Assembly (NCBI GenBank): GCA_017517705.1
Contig: JAFWYM010000044.1
Span: forward strand, 108,496-172,495
Reading direction: 5' to 3'
DNA from: Alistipes sp.
Lineage (GTDB): Bacteria > Bacteroidota > Bacteroidia > Bacteroidales > Rikenellaceae
DNA: 64,000 nucleotides
Both the position numbers and the translations under genes were made by a program. Of this stretch, positions 26,424 through 34,972 are shown piece after piece; position 1 is the first letter of the stretch, and every line of letters begins with the position of its first letter. The notes beneath the pieces were generated by a model, which was given only the letters and a program-made list of their open reading frames with translations, was not told the origin of the DNA and ran no database searches.

Positions 26424-26665
26424 TGCATAATTTTTCTAACTCACACTATCACACGGCTATTTTCTTGCATATACTACATTTTTATCCACTCATATCTGCG
26501 GGGATAATATAGAGCCTACACCGCAATATAGAGGCTATTGAAGCATTCAAAAAGTGTAGTTTTATATTCTTTTTGAGCGGGGGGGGGTACTCGCGATTAG
26601 GGGGTACTAATTGGGTATGGAGAGCGTGAGAGGGGGGCATCCCCCCTACTTATCTGGAATAGTTG

Positions 26666-26869
26666 TTACTTCAGCGTGCGCACATTGTGTGCCTCGGGAC
26701 GGCCGTCGTCACCTGCAGCCACCTCATATTCTACCCTCCAATTATGCTTAAGCGTACGGTAGCCCTCGCGCACGATAGCCGTATAGTGGACATACGTATC
26801 TACCCCATCATCACCGGTGATAAAACCGTAGCCACGCTTATTGTCGAACCATTTTACTATGCCCTTCAT
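26666..26869 (-). CDS. Cold-shock domain protein
   Basis: A 67-residue protein. The start is set at 26869, where Met-Lys-Gly-Ile-Val-Lys-Trp-Phe begins; the longer frame from 26896 has no family support and runs into the -7 box. RNP1 (Lys-Arg-Gly-Tyr-Gly-Phe-Ile) and an RNP2-like Thr-Tyr-Val-His-Tyr are present, so it should bind single-stranded RNA or DNA as an RNA chaperone. It diverges from the rSAM lipoprotein gene. A TAACTTTG -7 box on the minus strand is at 26894-26901. Confidence 0.92.
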   Translation of the reverse strand: MKGIVKWFDNKRGYGFITGDDGVDTYVHYTAIVREGYRTLKHNWRVEYEVAAGDDGRPEAHNVRTLK

Positions 26870-26952
26870 ACGCTTACACCACATTTGATACACCAAAGTT
26901 ACGAATTTTATCCTTACCGCGCAATACTAAGCAGCTCAAAATTTGCGTTATA

Positions 26953-26984
26953 TTTGTAGATTCGCAAAAAATAGTCTATATTTG
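26953..26984 (+). promoter_or_regulatory. Promoter of the radical SAM/lipoprotein operon
   Basis: TTTG (26953-26956), 20 bases, TATATTTG (26977-26984). A second TATATTTG at 26949-26956 overlaps the -33 element, so two tandem start points are possible. Leader of about 30 bases. Confidence 0.7.
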
Positions 26985-27017: not shown

Positions 27018-27464
27018 ATGAACTATAGATGGAAGATAGCTCTACTGACACTGCTCGGTTTCTCTACCGCAGCATGCTGTAGCACAAAGAAGGCGTCGAA
27101 GGGCGACGACAAGGCGAACAACGCCATTGAGACTGAGGGTATCGACAACCGCGTGATGCTTATGTATGGCGTGCCTATGCCCGATGGTAGCTTCCCCACA
27201 CCGATGCCCAACGAGCAGCCACAGATTGTACGTCCGGGCGTTCCCTTCCCCGATGGCCGTCGCGCTATAGAGATGACCGAGGAGCGTGCTGCCGAGATTA
27301 TGGAGATGATCAAAACCGAGGAGGCTGCCAAGGCCGAGATCGTCAAGGAGATTGATGGTGTTCCCTTCCCCGATGGCCGTGTGGCTATCGTTATGACCGA
27401 GGAGCGCGCTGCCGAGATTATGGAGATGATCAAAGCCGAGGAGGCTGCCAAGGAGAAGAAGTAA
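27018..27464 (+). CDS. Lipoprotein of the rSAM/lipoprotein system (predicted modification substrate)
   Basis: A 148-residue protein with a lipoprotein signal ending Thr-Ala-Ala-Cys (Cys20, followed by Cys21). A Met-Tyr-Gly-Val-Pro at 49-53 opens the first of three Gly-Val-Pro-x-Pro-Asp-Gly motifs (51-57, 74-80, 114-120). The last two head nearly identical units of about 40 residues, each running on through Met-Thr-Glu-Glu-Arg-Ala-Ala-Glu-Ile-Met-Glu-Met-Ile. Small Bacteroidetes lipoproteins with Tyr-Gly-x-Pro motifs next to a SPASM radical SAM enzyme are catalogued as a pair, to my recollection TIGR04134 with TIGR04133, without a known product. The gene ends 12 bases before the radical SAM gene. 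Confidence 0.8.
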   Translation: MNYRWKIALLTLLGFSTAACCSTKKASKGDDKANNAIETEGIDNRVMLMYGVPMPDGSFPTPMPNEQPQIVRPGVPFPDGRRAIEMTEERAAEIMEMIKTEEAAKAEIVKEIDGVPFPDGRVAIVMTEERAAEIMEMIKAEEAAKEKK

Positions 27465-27476
27465 CCGACAACGACA

Positions 27477-28553
27477 GTGAAGGGCAAACGATTAGGACTC
27501 CGCAAGCGTCTGGGACTCAAACTATTCAAGGGCCTCTATGACGATGCTGTGGAGCGTCATGAGTTGCGTACACTCTTTTGGGAGTGTACGCTTCGTTGTA
27601 ATCTGAGGTGTCGCCACTGCGGTAGCGACTGCCGCACGGATGTTCAGGAGCAGGACATGCCTTTGGCGGACTTCCTGCGTGTCTTGGATGAGGAGGTCAC
27701 ACCCAATGTCGACCCACGTCGCGTGCTGATCATCTTCTCTGGTGGCGAGGTTCTCGTGCGTAGCGACATTGAGGAGGCGGGGCGCGAGGTCACACGTCGC
27801 GGCTATGCCTGGGGCATGGTGACTAACGGCATGTCTCTCACGCGCGAGCGTCTTGACGGCCTGGTGCGCGCCGGTCTTCGCACCATATCGGTGAGCTTCG
27901 ACGGCTTCCCCGATGAGCACAACTACATACGTCAGAGCCCCCTTAGCTTCGAGCGAGCCCGCCAAGCATTAGGATATATACGCGAGGTCGAGGGTCTTGT
28001 CTACGATGCCATAACATGCGTCACACCCGCGATGATAGAGCGCCTTGAGGAGTGGAAGGAGTTCTTGATAAGCGAGGGTATTACACGTTGGCGCATATTC
28101 TCTATATTTCCTGCAGGACGCGCCAAGAGAGACGACAGCCTGCACCTCAATGCCGAGCAGTTCCGCACACTCATGGAGTTTATACGTCGCACACGCCAAG
28201 AGGGGCGTATATCGCTCAACTACGCCTGCGAGGGCTTCCTTGGGGGCTATGAGGCTGAAGTTCGCGACCACTTCTATATGTGTACTGCCGGTGTCTCGGT
28301 AGCCTCCATCCGCGTGAATGGAGACATATCGGGATGCACAAGCGTGCGCGGCAACTACACGCAAGGTAACATCTACCGCGACCACTTCTGGGATGTATGG
28401 CAGAATAGATTTACCCCCTTCCGCAACCGCGAGTGGGCACATAAGGGCGAGTGCGCCGACTGCAAGGTGTGGGAGTTCTGTCGTGGCGGGGGCATGCACC
28501 TGCGCGACGACGAGGGCGAACTGATGTACTGCCACTACAACATGTTGAAATAG
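27477..28553 (+). CDS. Radical SAM/SPASM enzyme, rSAM/lipoprotein system
   Basis: A 358-residue protein starting with GTG. The radical SAM cluster motif is Cys41-x3-Cys45-x2-Cys48, followed by Ser-Gly-Gly-Glu for SAM binding. A SPASM-type C-terminus supplies Cys269, 287, 326, 329, 335 and 352 for auxiliary 4Fe-4S clusters, as in peptide-modifying enzymes. The N-terminal 30 residues are basic and precede 'Leu-Phe-Trp-Glu-Cys-Thr-Leu-Arg-Cys-Asn'. It is cotranscribed with the repeat lipoprotein just upstream, which is its likely substrate or partner (inference). It acts in the cytoplasm, so modification would precede export. Confidence 0.9.
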   Translation: MKGKRLGLRKRLGLKLFKGLYDDAVERHELRTLFWECTLRCNLRCRHCGSDCRTDVQEQDMPLADFLRVLDEEVTPNVDPRRVLIIFSGGEVLVRSDIEEAGREVTRRGYAWGMVTNGMSLTRERLDGLVRAGLRTISVSFDGFPDEHNYIRQSPLSFERARQALGYIREVEGLVYDAITCVTPAMIERLEEWKEFLISEGITRWRIFSIFPAGRAKRDDSLHLNAEQFRTLMEFIRRTRQEGRISLNYACEGFLGGYEAEVRDHFYMCTAGVSVASIRVNGDISGCTSVRGNYTQGNIYRDHFWDVWQNRFTPFRNREWAHKGECADCKVWEFCRGGGMHLRDDEGELMYCHYNMLK

Positions 28554-28570
28554 CAGATATTAAGACTTTA

Positions 28571-28614
28571 TTAAATAGATAATAGGGAGCGAGAGCTCCC
28601 TATTATCTATTTAA
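28571..28614. terminator. Strong bidirectional terminator, overlapping the ompA-like 3' end
   Basis: A perfect 20-bp stem (arms 28571-28590 and 28595-28614) around a GAGA loop, with A/T-rich flanks. The right arm includes the last two codons and the stop of the convergent OmpA-family gene, so the hairpin is partly coding. Confidence 0.9.
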
Positions 28615-29809
28615 TAATCACACATCTATTAACCACGGGCGTATCGGGTGAGTCGAAGGCCTTGACCGTATCGCCCACCCACGTTGTCGTTATGCGACTT
28701 GGGGCGATGCCCGCATCGAGGAGGTAAGCCTTGACATTCTCGGCACGCTCCATAGATAGCTGCTCGTTACGCTCGGCACTACCCGTCTCCTTATCGGCAT
28801 ATCCCGTGATGTGTATCGGGGCATTGCTCTTCGATAGCGTGGCAATGTAGCCATCGAGCGTTGCCGAGGCGTAGTCCGAGAGTTGCGCTTCGCCAATATT
28901 GAAGAACACAACACCCTCACCCATAGTGACATACTCCGTCTTAGGCTTCTTTGCACGGCAGGTCTCGAGGTCGCTCTTGAGGCGTGCATTGTCGGCAGTA
29001 AGGTTATCCACCTGCTTGTTGGCCTTAGCTAAGTGCTCGCCAGTGCTGAGCAGCTGCTGCTCGAGGAGCACGATGGCCGCGAGGTATCCGTCGACCTCGA
29101 CAGCAGAGTATGCCGGAGTCCAGTCGCGCTGATTGAAACGATAGGCGACACCGAGTGATGCCGACATAGCGAAGGCATAGCGCCCGCCACTCTGAATCTC
29201 CTGGGGCAGGCCCTTCTCCGCAAAGAGCCACGAGCGTAGGTCAAGCTCTATGTCGAGCTGCCGACATACGCGAAACTTATTGAGAAGTCCCGAGGAGAAG
29301 GCATACTCTCCATTATACGACCCTGCCGACTTCTTTGTCCACGACATCGCGGTATATCCGAAGCCTATATATGATATGGCGCTGTATATGCGATTCTCGC
29401 GGTAGCCACCTATCCAGTTCGACATATTTACGAGAATGTCGCCGTGGACAAACATATAGGGAGTCTTGAAGGCTCCGTTACCGAAGCGAGGCTTATCCAT
29501 CGAGTAGTTCTGAAACTCTCCGGCATCGAGCTGCAGACGCATACCGATGATGGGCACTACCCACTTTGTGAATCCCACATTGGCATTCCACCCCACTCGG
29601 TCGAAAAACTTACCCGGATCCTTTGCTCCCGAGCGGTTAGCCACCTTCAGCGAGGAGGCACCGCCACCAACGCTTATCTCCCAGTTATCCCAAAACCTGT
29701 TGGTCTCGTGCCCCTGCCAGCGTAGGGTGCTACGTCCCTCCTGAGCTATAGCCATAGTTGCCGACATCAGCGCTACGACTACGATAACACTACGTAAAAT
29801 CTTTTTCAT
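28607..29809 (-). CDS. OmpA-family outer membrane protein
   Basis: A 400-residue protein with a signal peptide (cleavage after Ala-Ile-Ala at about 22), an N-terminal region of about 220 residues with alternating aromatic strands that fits an outer-membrane beta-barrel, a short coiled-coil-like segment (about 245-285), and a C-terminal OmpA peptidoglycan-binding domain. The domain is marked by Thr-Gly-Tyr-Ala-Asp-Lys-Glu-Thr-Gly and Asn-Glu-Gln-Leu-Ser-x2-Arg-Ala-Glu-Asn-Val. It would tether the outer membrane to the wall. It is a single gene, convergent with the radical SAM gene. Confidence 0.9.
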   Translation of the reverse strand: MKKILRSVIVVVALMSATMAIAQEGRSTLRWQGHETNRFWDNWEISVGGGASSLKVANRSGAKDPGKFFDRVGWNANVGFTKWVVPIIGMRLQLDAGEFQNYSMDKPRFGNGAFKTPYMFVHGDILVNMSNWIGGYRENRIYSAISYIGFGYTAMSWTKKSAGSYNGEYAFSSGLLNKFRVCRQLDIELDLRSWLFAEKGLPQEIQSGGRYAFAMSASLGVAYRFNQRDWTPAYSAVEVDGYLAAIVLLEQQLLSTGEHLAKANKQVDNLTADNARLKSDLETCRAKKPKTEYVTMGEGVVFFNIGEAQLSDYASATLDGYIATLSKSNAPIHITGYADKETGSAERNEQLSMERAENVKAYLLDAGIAPSRITTTWVGDTVKAFDSPDTPVVNRCVIIK

Positions 29810-34686: not shown

Positions 34687-34716
34687 CAACACGCCACCTG
34701 TGGGCGTAACAATCAA

Positions 34717-34745
34717 GAGAGCATCCCTCGGGGTGCTCTCTTGCT
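34717..34745 (+). terminator. Terminator after the 32707 lipoprotein gene
   Basis: GAGAGCATCCC pairs with GGGGTGCTCTC, then a T-rich tail. The same stem sequence ends ridA at 6563-6590. Confidence 0.8.
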
Positions 34746-34768
34746 TGTTTTGTTTGTAGGACAGTATG

Positions 34769-34850
34769 TGAGCAATGAGTAGTGAGTAGTGAGGAGTGAG
34801 GAGTGAGCAGTGAGGAGTGAGGAGTGGGGAGAGTGGGGAGAGTGGGTATT
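34769..34850. repeat. GTGAGGA-type purine-rich tandem repeat
   Basis: About eleven degenerate 7-base units of the GTGAGGA/GTGAGTA/GTGGGGA kind, running directly into the 9-bp array that follows. Confidence 0.75.
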
Positions 34851-34853
34851 ATT

Positions 34854-34928
34854 ACCCATACTACCCATACTACCCATACTACCCATACTACCCATACTAC
34901 CCATACTACCCATACTACCCATACTACT
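34854..34928. repeat. 9-bp tandem array (ACCCATACT)
   Basis: Eight perfect head-to-tail copies of ACCCATACT with a partial ninth. Open frames through it in several directions are artefacts of the period. Confidence 0.95.
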
Positions 34929-34929
34929 A

Positions 34930-34972
34930 AAGTGACCCCAAAAGTTTTTTGTCCAAACTTTTGGGGTCACTT
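34930..34972. repeat. Palindrome of two IS3-like ends
   Basis: Perfect 18-bp arms (AAGTGACCCCAAAAGTTT and its complement) around TTTGTCC. The arm TGACCCCAAAAGTTT and the inner GTCCAAACTTTTGGGGTCA closely match the end of the IS3-family element at 63879. It may be a remnant left after loss of the transposase, or a terminator of IS origin. Confidence 0.65.

Follow-up and report, generated by a model that had tools for sequence, protein, structure and literature searches.

Candidate tyramine excision from a surface lipoprotein by a co-encoded radical SAM/SPASM enzyme in Alistipes

According to the available excerpts of the respective papers, the splicease pair PlpX and PlpY excises tyramine at X-Tyr-Gly, with MYG and LYG as natural sites (PMC10533398, PMC11002830, PMC10373908), which changes the mass by -135.0757 Da (PMC10533398). 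Tags based on the PlpA2 core include GPIRPLYGLPI (PMC10533398, PMC11002830, PMC10373908). The same kind of excerpt describes spliceotides as protease inhibitors (PMC11117315, PMC10373908) and names InterPro entry IPR026482 for PlpX (PMC11002830). DAG-RiPPs, again going by part of the source text, are RiPP-lipoprotein hybrids made by MNIO enzymes that recognise a C-terminal motif (PMC12636315).

The enzyme studied here belongs to TIGR04133 (rSAM_w_lipo), which NCBIfam lists as hypoth_equivalog without a named reaction and which is catalogued together with the lipoprotein family TIGR04134 (lipo_with_rSAM); our literature search found no paper naming either model. Two further models serve for comparison, i.e., TIGR04103, which we take to be IPR026482, and TIGR03913 of the GDL-motif (DUF1843) maturases.

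The gene pair was analysed within a window of 64,000 nucleotides of Alistipes sp. DNA, where the window denotes the whole stretch (Table 1). The first-pass annotation had described a two-gene unit with its own promoter. The unit is borne out by the two open reading frames, which lie on one strand with a spacing of 12 bases, but the promoter is only plausible. The Bacteroidetes -7 promoter consensus is TAnnTTTG, and two TATATTTG sites fit it; since the window's + strand holds 22 such matches, they are weak promoter evidence. The pair is flanked on the opposite strand by a frame that we take to be cold-shock-like (26666-26896) and by an OmpA gene (28607-29809). Two co-directional frames with TTG starts upstream of the pair (26611-26751, 26663-26959) overlap the former in antisense. 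Among the neighbouring frames, none adjoining the pair is a PlpY-type recognition partner gene. Among the matches listed, the closest named relative comes from sheep colon (Alistipes sp. RGIG5460); its enzyme is 96% identical. Elsewhere in the window (34713-34970, - strand), an 85-aa open reading frame repeats SMG many times over and is probably a simple-sequence repeat, not a gene.

Table 1. Features of the lipoprotein-enzyme locus, in window coordinates
Feature	Position	Strand	Basis
Lipoprotein gene, 148 aa, proposed substrate	27018..27464	+	ORF; alignment of 23 close homologues
Signal peptide and lipobox, Cys20 at 27075-27077	27018..27077	+	Lipobox pattern
LLGFS in signal peptide, aa 12-16	27051-27065	+	LGF common in partner lipoproteins
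MYGVP, aa 49-53, proposed excision site, 30 residues past Cys20	27162..27176	+	Invariant in 23/23 close homologues
Second GVPFPDG, aa 74-80, without Tyr	27237..27257	+	Sequence
Third GVPFPDG, aa 114-120, without Tyr, 40 residues past the second	27357..27377	+	Sequence
Radical SAM/SPASM enzyme gene, TIGR04133, 358 aa, GTG start	27477..28553	+	NCBIfam 562.4 bits, cut-off 425
CNLRCRHC, SAM-cluster motif (C41, C45, C48), then GSDC	27597..27620	+	Cys invariant in 134/134 members
SPASM region C269-C352, Gly339 at usual Cys place	28281..28532	+	Family alignment; Pfam SPASM 33.9 bits
Two TATATTTG sites, possible Bacteroidetes-type promoter	26949-26956, 26977-26984	+	Pattern match, weak

With regard to family membership, the enzyme exceeds the TIGR04133 cut-off and covers profile positions 1-349 of 350. 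The earlier reference to similar pairs catalogued in Bacteroidetes thus holds for the enzyme but not for the lipoprotein, which matches 0 NCBIfam families, TIGR04134 (cut-off 39.8 bits) included, so that we rejected its assignment to TIGR04134. Pfam gave chance-level matches only for the lipoprotein, and its best match among solved structures had an E-value of 0.5 or worse. Compared with TIGR04133/TIGR04134 pairs, the locus therefore shares a full-member enzyme and the two-gene logic, and differs in its lipoprotein.

All cysteines for the SAM cluster and the auxiliary clusters had been reported as complete. This is correct for the SAM cluster, whose CxxxCxxC cysteines are conserved throughout the 134 TIGR04133 members, the window's own included. 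The usual SPASM motif has seven cysteines (CX9-15GX4C - CX2CX5CX3C - C), of which the window enzyme has six (C269, C287, C326, C329, C335, C352). G339 occupies the cysteine place of CX3C, which rules out a complete set; Gly is found here in 131/134 members and Cys in 7/7 splicease-type rows. The enzyme thus departs from the seven-Cys motif while still exceeding the Pfam SPASM cut-off of 21.5 bits. Within TIGR04133, C52, C181, C251 and H341 are invariant while the one SPASM cysteine is lost, i.e., the auxiliary-cluster ligand set is an unusual one.

Next, co-occurrence was evaluated in 180 Alistipes and 295 Bacteroidales genomes. TIGR04133 is found in 136 of the 180 Alistipes genomes at an E-value of 1e-60 (134 over cut-off) and over cut-off in 61/295 Bacteroidales genomes; it also occurs on a Treponema plasmid, where the partner lipoprotein reads SCYGMP. 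A profile built from 23 window-type lipoproteins (A3), whose matches include weaker ones to a related short type, identifies 106/180 Alistipes genomes, and all 106 have the enzyme. In the 29 of these genomes with both coordinates among the matches listed, the gap between lipoprotein and enzyme is 2-298 bases. TIGR04134 is found in 91 Alistipes genomes, 88 of them with TIGR04133, and over cut-off in 40/295 Bacteroidales genomes, 39 of them with TIGR04133 by a comparison made by eye. Had the lipoproteins mostly occurred without the enzyme, the proposed pair would be hard to maintain; the opposite was observed, i.e., the enzyme is missing for 0/106 window-type cases and for 3/91 (Alistipes) and 1/40 (Bacteroidales) TIGR04134 cases.

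Adjacency is similarly pronounced. Among 134 non-redundant enzyme loci, which are the best-scoring matches and not a random sample, a lipobox pattern finder calls a lipoprotein no more than 260 bases upstream of the enzyme in 129. The remaining five are two loci with the end of the contig 4 and 397 bases from their start (L146, L026) and three with lipoproteins seen by eye (L051, L052, L055). Co-occurrence and adjacency in these genomes thus strongly support the suggested enzyme-substrate pair.

We then compared the partner lipoproteins with each other. The set comprises 126 adjacent lipoproteins from the 134 loci, where L123, L127 and L024 (second radical SAM gene) were dropped; it contains related sequences, which inflate the counts. 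As a background, we used 95 lipoprotein-like open reading frames from 773 kb of the window's 1.99 Mb genome with known partners removed. A YG within 60 residues of the lipobox Cys is present in 123/126 partners vs. 14/95 in the background, and the more specific patterns YG.{1,3}P (114/126 vs. 1/95) and MYG (93/126 vs. 0/95) separate the sets further. The same holds for LGF within 18 residues before the Cys (95/126 vs. 0/95). Only L122, L139 and L047 are without YG (3/126); beside one further enzyme (L250), the nearest lipoprotein has none and its tandem neighbour has CYGSP.

The X-Tyr-Gly near the lipid anchor is mostly MYG[VT]P, across partners whose architectures otherwise differ. Enzymes with 73% or more identity to that of the window have MYGVPxPDG proteins as partners (23/23), those 64-72% identical have short-tail partners (43/45), and the 58 more distant ones have CarboxypepD_reg-like (34) or short (24) partners, where these classes are pattern-based with weak to moderate Pfam matches for two examples. 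That is, the motif recurs in PDG-repeat, short-tail, CarboxypepD_reg-like and two-copy repeat-rich lipoproteins. The last type is represented by L044 and L254, each with two YG[TSP]P motifs beside a TIGR04133 enzyme. In distant partners, CYGxP sits right at the lipobox Cys. The X position holds Glu in 15 partners and Cys in 14, neither being reported for spliceases in the excerpts seen; these counts include L123, L127 and L024, to which three of the five Leu in this position belong. In L049, L051 and L052, LLGFS is separate from the lipobox, e.g., LLGFSATPMLTACYG, and therefore is not simply the lipobox.

The window lipoprotein shows the same features. Its three GVPxPDG motifs (the first at aa 51-57, the others as in Table 1) were correctly described, as were the near-identical 40-residue units headed by the last two, which agree in 29/35 residues and 91/105 bases. 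These units were the reason to consider the repeat itself as the modification site, a claim that the close homologues do not support. In the 23 window-type proteins, M-Y-G-V-P-x-P-x-G (residues 49-57) is invariant and lies 30-31 residues past the Cys, whereas the GVPxPDG-like copies beyond the first number 0 to 3 and a second YG occurs in only 3/23. The window protein, encoded next to the enzyme, has a single MYGVP with its MYG at 27162-27170, and its later copies (PGVPFPDG, DGVPFPDG) are without Tyr. Outside the window group, the PDG type is found in 1/103 other partners, whereas X-Tyr-Gly is nearly always present. Modification of the repeat is thus hardly credible, and we discarded it on the grounds of its copy variation. 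Since the later copies lack Tyr and their number varies, the repeat resembles a multi-core that has decayed, or else a spacer.

A further question is whether Tyr-Gly and LGF are kept for a reason other than the enzyme, e.g., a shared sorting or envelope partner, with the enzyme acting elsewhere. Three genomes without a TIGR04133 match (G009, G012 and G797; 82, 85 and 94% complete) retain YG lipoproteins, as this explanation would have it, whereas a fourth (G093, 91% complete) has a TIGR04134-type lipoprotein that keeps LGF and has no YG. A strict dependence of YG on the enzyme hence fits one of these four genomes. Among 18 further Bacteroidales enzyme loci, hand-picked mostly for divergence, 17 are not truncated at a contig end; a YG lipoprotein adjoins the enzyme in 12 of these, in most cases with ACYGxP at the lipobox Cys. 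The other five have none adjacent: L241-L243 are weak TIGR04133 matches (223-247 bits), and two belong to full-length enzymes, i.e., L257/L284 (G745, 474 bits) and L258/L285 (G703, 553 bits), with no YG lipoprotein within 12-16 kb. The latter two would be accounted for by a substrate gene in another part of the genome, as with other lipoproteins distant from an enzyme. Given the nearly complete adjacency and co-occurrence in Alistipes, and given that X-Tyr-Gly also marks peptides without a lipoprotein signal beside the enzyme's kin, we consider a purpose unrelated to the enzyme distinctly improbable. Judged from these comparisons, the enzyme very probably modifies the X-Tyr-Gly of its co-encoded lipoprotein.

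To which chemistry this points depends on the enzyme's kinship. In a tree with few outgroup families (MftC, PqqE, NirJ, TIGR04053, TIGR04347 and two unassigned rows), TIGR04133 groups with the TIGR04103, GDL (TIGR03913) and Agathobacter-type rows at a support of 99/98. When two long rows are left out and TIGR04133 is thinned, the same clade is found at 93/89, again with few outgroup families. By these trees, TIGR04133 probably lies inside the splicease-type clade, without a direct sister being singled out. Likewise, TIGR04133 ranks third or fourth among the models for five splicease-type rows (129-185 bits); its scores for the outgroups are 108 (MftC), 104 (TIGR04053 enzyme), 80 (NirJ) and 53 bits (PqqE). 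TIGR04133, TIGR04103, GDL and Agathobacter-type rows share HCGS at the SAM motif, which no outgroup row has; L167-L170, within the clade, have HCAS instead. Profile scores of the window enzyme alone do not single out the splicease models: NirJ2 (120.9 bits) and AhbD (114.5) are slightly above TIGR03913 (111.6) and TIGR04103, and TIGR04053 reaches 112.3. The TIGR04103 equivalog model gives 105.9 bits, far below its cut-off of 725. A search of solved structures for a splicease returned only SkfB, PqqE, BlsE, MoaA and similar.

Beside some of the kin enzymes, YG motifs are found as well (LYGLPP, LYGTPP, MYGTG, KYGYP). Beside a Nostoc C057 TIGR04103 enzyme, the adjoining Nif11 precursor ends in SIALYGLPPELF; the L164 precursor has LLYGTPPVP, and its L163 homologue is without YG. 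Among the DUF1843 peptides, 7/11 have YG near their start, e.g., PYGVAI or LYGVGI. The TIGR03913 systems are similar in motif and probably in clade, and differ in that their precursors are small without a lipobox and their enzymes longer (474-518 aa). For the L165, L167-L172 and Tropicibacter enzymes of the wider clade, the neighbourhood showed no YG peptide. L167-L172 are TIGR04103-like enzymes; upstream of most of them stands a conserved partner that is about 99 residues long (LKFDPSVVMYLVIxDKLL) and lacks YG. Downstream of another TIGR04103-like enzyme (L166, 2954-3599), six KYGYP in the C-terminal part look like a multi-core X-Tyr-Gly substrate. On an Agathobacter rectalis plasmid (L176, 3709-3916), an unannotated open reading frame for a 35-residue peptide containing VMYGTGVRM precedes an unassigned radical SAM gene, after which comes an MFS transporter.

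The enzyme may instead act at Tyr-Gly by another radical reaction without excision, i.e., a Tyr cross-link or ether, beta-carbon chemistry or a Tyr-Pro bond in YG[VT]P. A Pro two residues after the Gly in 77/126 first YG sites (three mis-picked open reading frames included) goes beyond what X-Tyr-Gly itself needs, and the changed SPASM ligand set could mean changed chemistry. We nevertheless consider this alternative less likely, as the neighbours of some kin enzymes include precursors that resemble the known splicease core LYGLP, and as Tyr and Gly stay fixed although the next position can hold V, T, S, P, C, I, M, D or A. Tyramine excision from the surface lipoprotein, in a splicease-like manner with the signal peptide as leader, is our preferred reading, to which we assign a probability of roughly 0.55. 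The pairing, the common X-Tyr-Gly and LGF, and the splicease-type kinship speak for it. In common with PlpXY, the locus has a radical SAM/SPASM enzyme, an X-Tyr-Gly precursor, HCGS and probably the clade. It differs in the lipoprotein signal peptide, where PlpXY systems have a Nif11 or nitrile-hydratase leader, in that no PlpY-like partner was seen beside the pair, in the altered SPASM ligands and in the low TIGR04103 score.

Under tyramine excision, the lipoprotein precursor would be made in the cytoplasm, and LLGFS of the signal peptide would serve as the recognition leader, given that the enzyme is a short one and that a separate recognition gene was not seen next to it. The enzyme would cut most of one Tyr out, leaving a reactive group like that of known protease inhibitors. 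After export, lipidation on Cys20 and display, a reactive ketoamide would sit 30 residues from the membrane anchor, and the lipoprotein could inhibit proteases, or serve as bait for them, while tethered to the surface, with the later GVPxPDG units as decayed Tyr-less copies or a spacer. For a catalogued pair without a named reaction, this gives a precise prediction, i.e., -135.08 Da at Met49-Tyr50-Gly51. If true, backbone splicing would extend to surface lipoproteins of gut bacteria, and a protease-facing role at the host interface would be suggested. A radical SAM route would also be added to RiPP-lipoprotein hybrids: the Cys20 lipobox (by pattern) lies on a precursor adjoining a radical SAM enzyme, and as in DAG-RiPPs, a RiPP-type modification (here proposed), a signal peptidase II signal on the precursor and Bacteroidota as hosts come together. 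There, the enzyme is an MNIO, and 'radical SAM' occurs 0 times in the available part of PMC12636315.

Many related gut bacteria have this pairing too. A tentative extension, to which we give slightly less than an even chance, is that many gut Bacteroidales display outer-membrane lipoproteins that are lipid-anchored spliceotides, a large class so far unrecognised: the Sec signal peptide would be the leader, one enzyme would serve several structurally unrelated lipoproteins, some of them with genes far from its own, the tethered ketoamide would trap proteases and, in distant CYG members, the lipidated Cys would be homologated. Among the literature matches listed (titles and abstract starts, so that an earlier mention is possible), none concerns lipoprotein spliceotides, and the available part of a Bacteroidales RiPP-cluster survey (PMC10352776) contains 'splice' 0 times.

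Five TIGR04134-type MYG lipoproteins (L199, L201, L202, L203, L205) lie on a contig other than that of their genome's single TIGR04133 match and are possible substrates in trans. Finally, the window's own genome holds a second TIGR04133 system (G000, contig C37, 19511-23087; L001, L003-L006). Besides the enzyme, two TIGR04134 lipoproteins there exceed the cut-off and a third matches weakly; a further radical SAM/SPASM gene (L003) stays below the NCBIfam cut-off of each of the 25 families listed for it.
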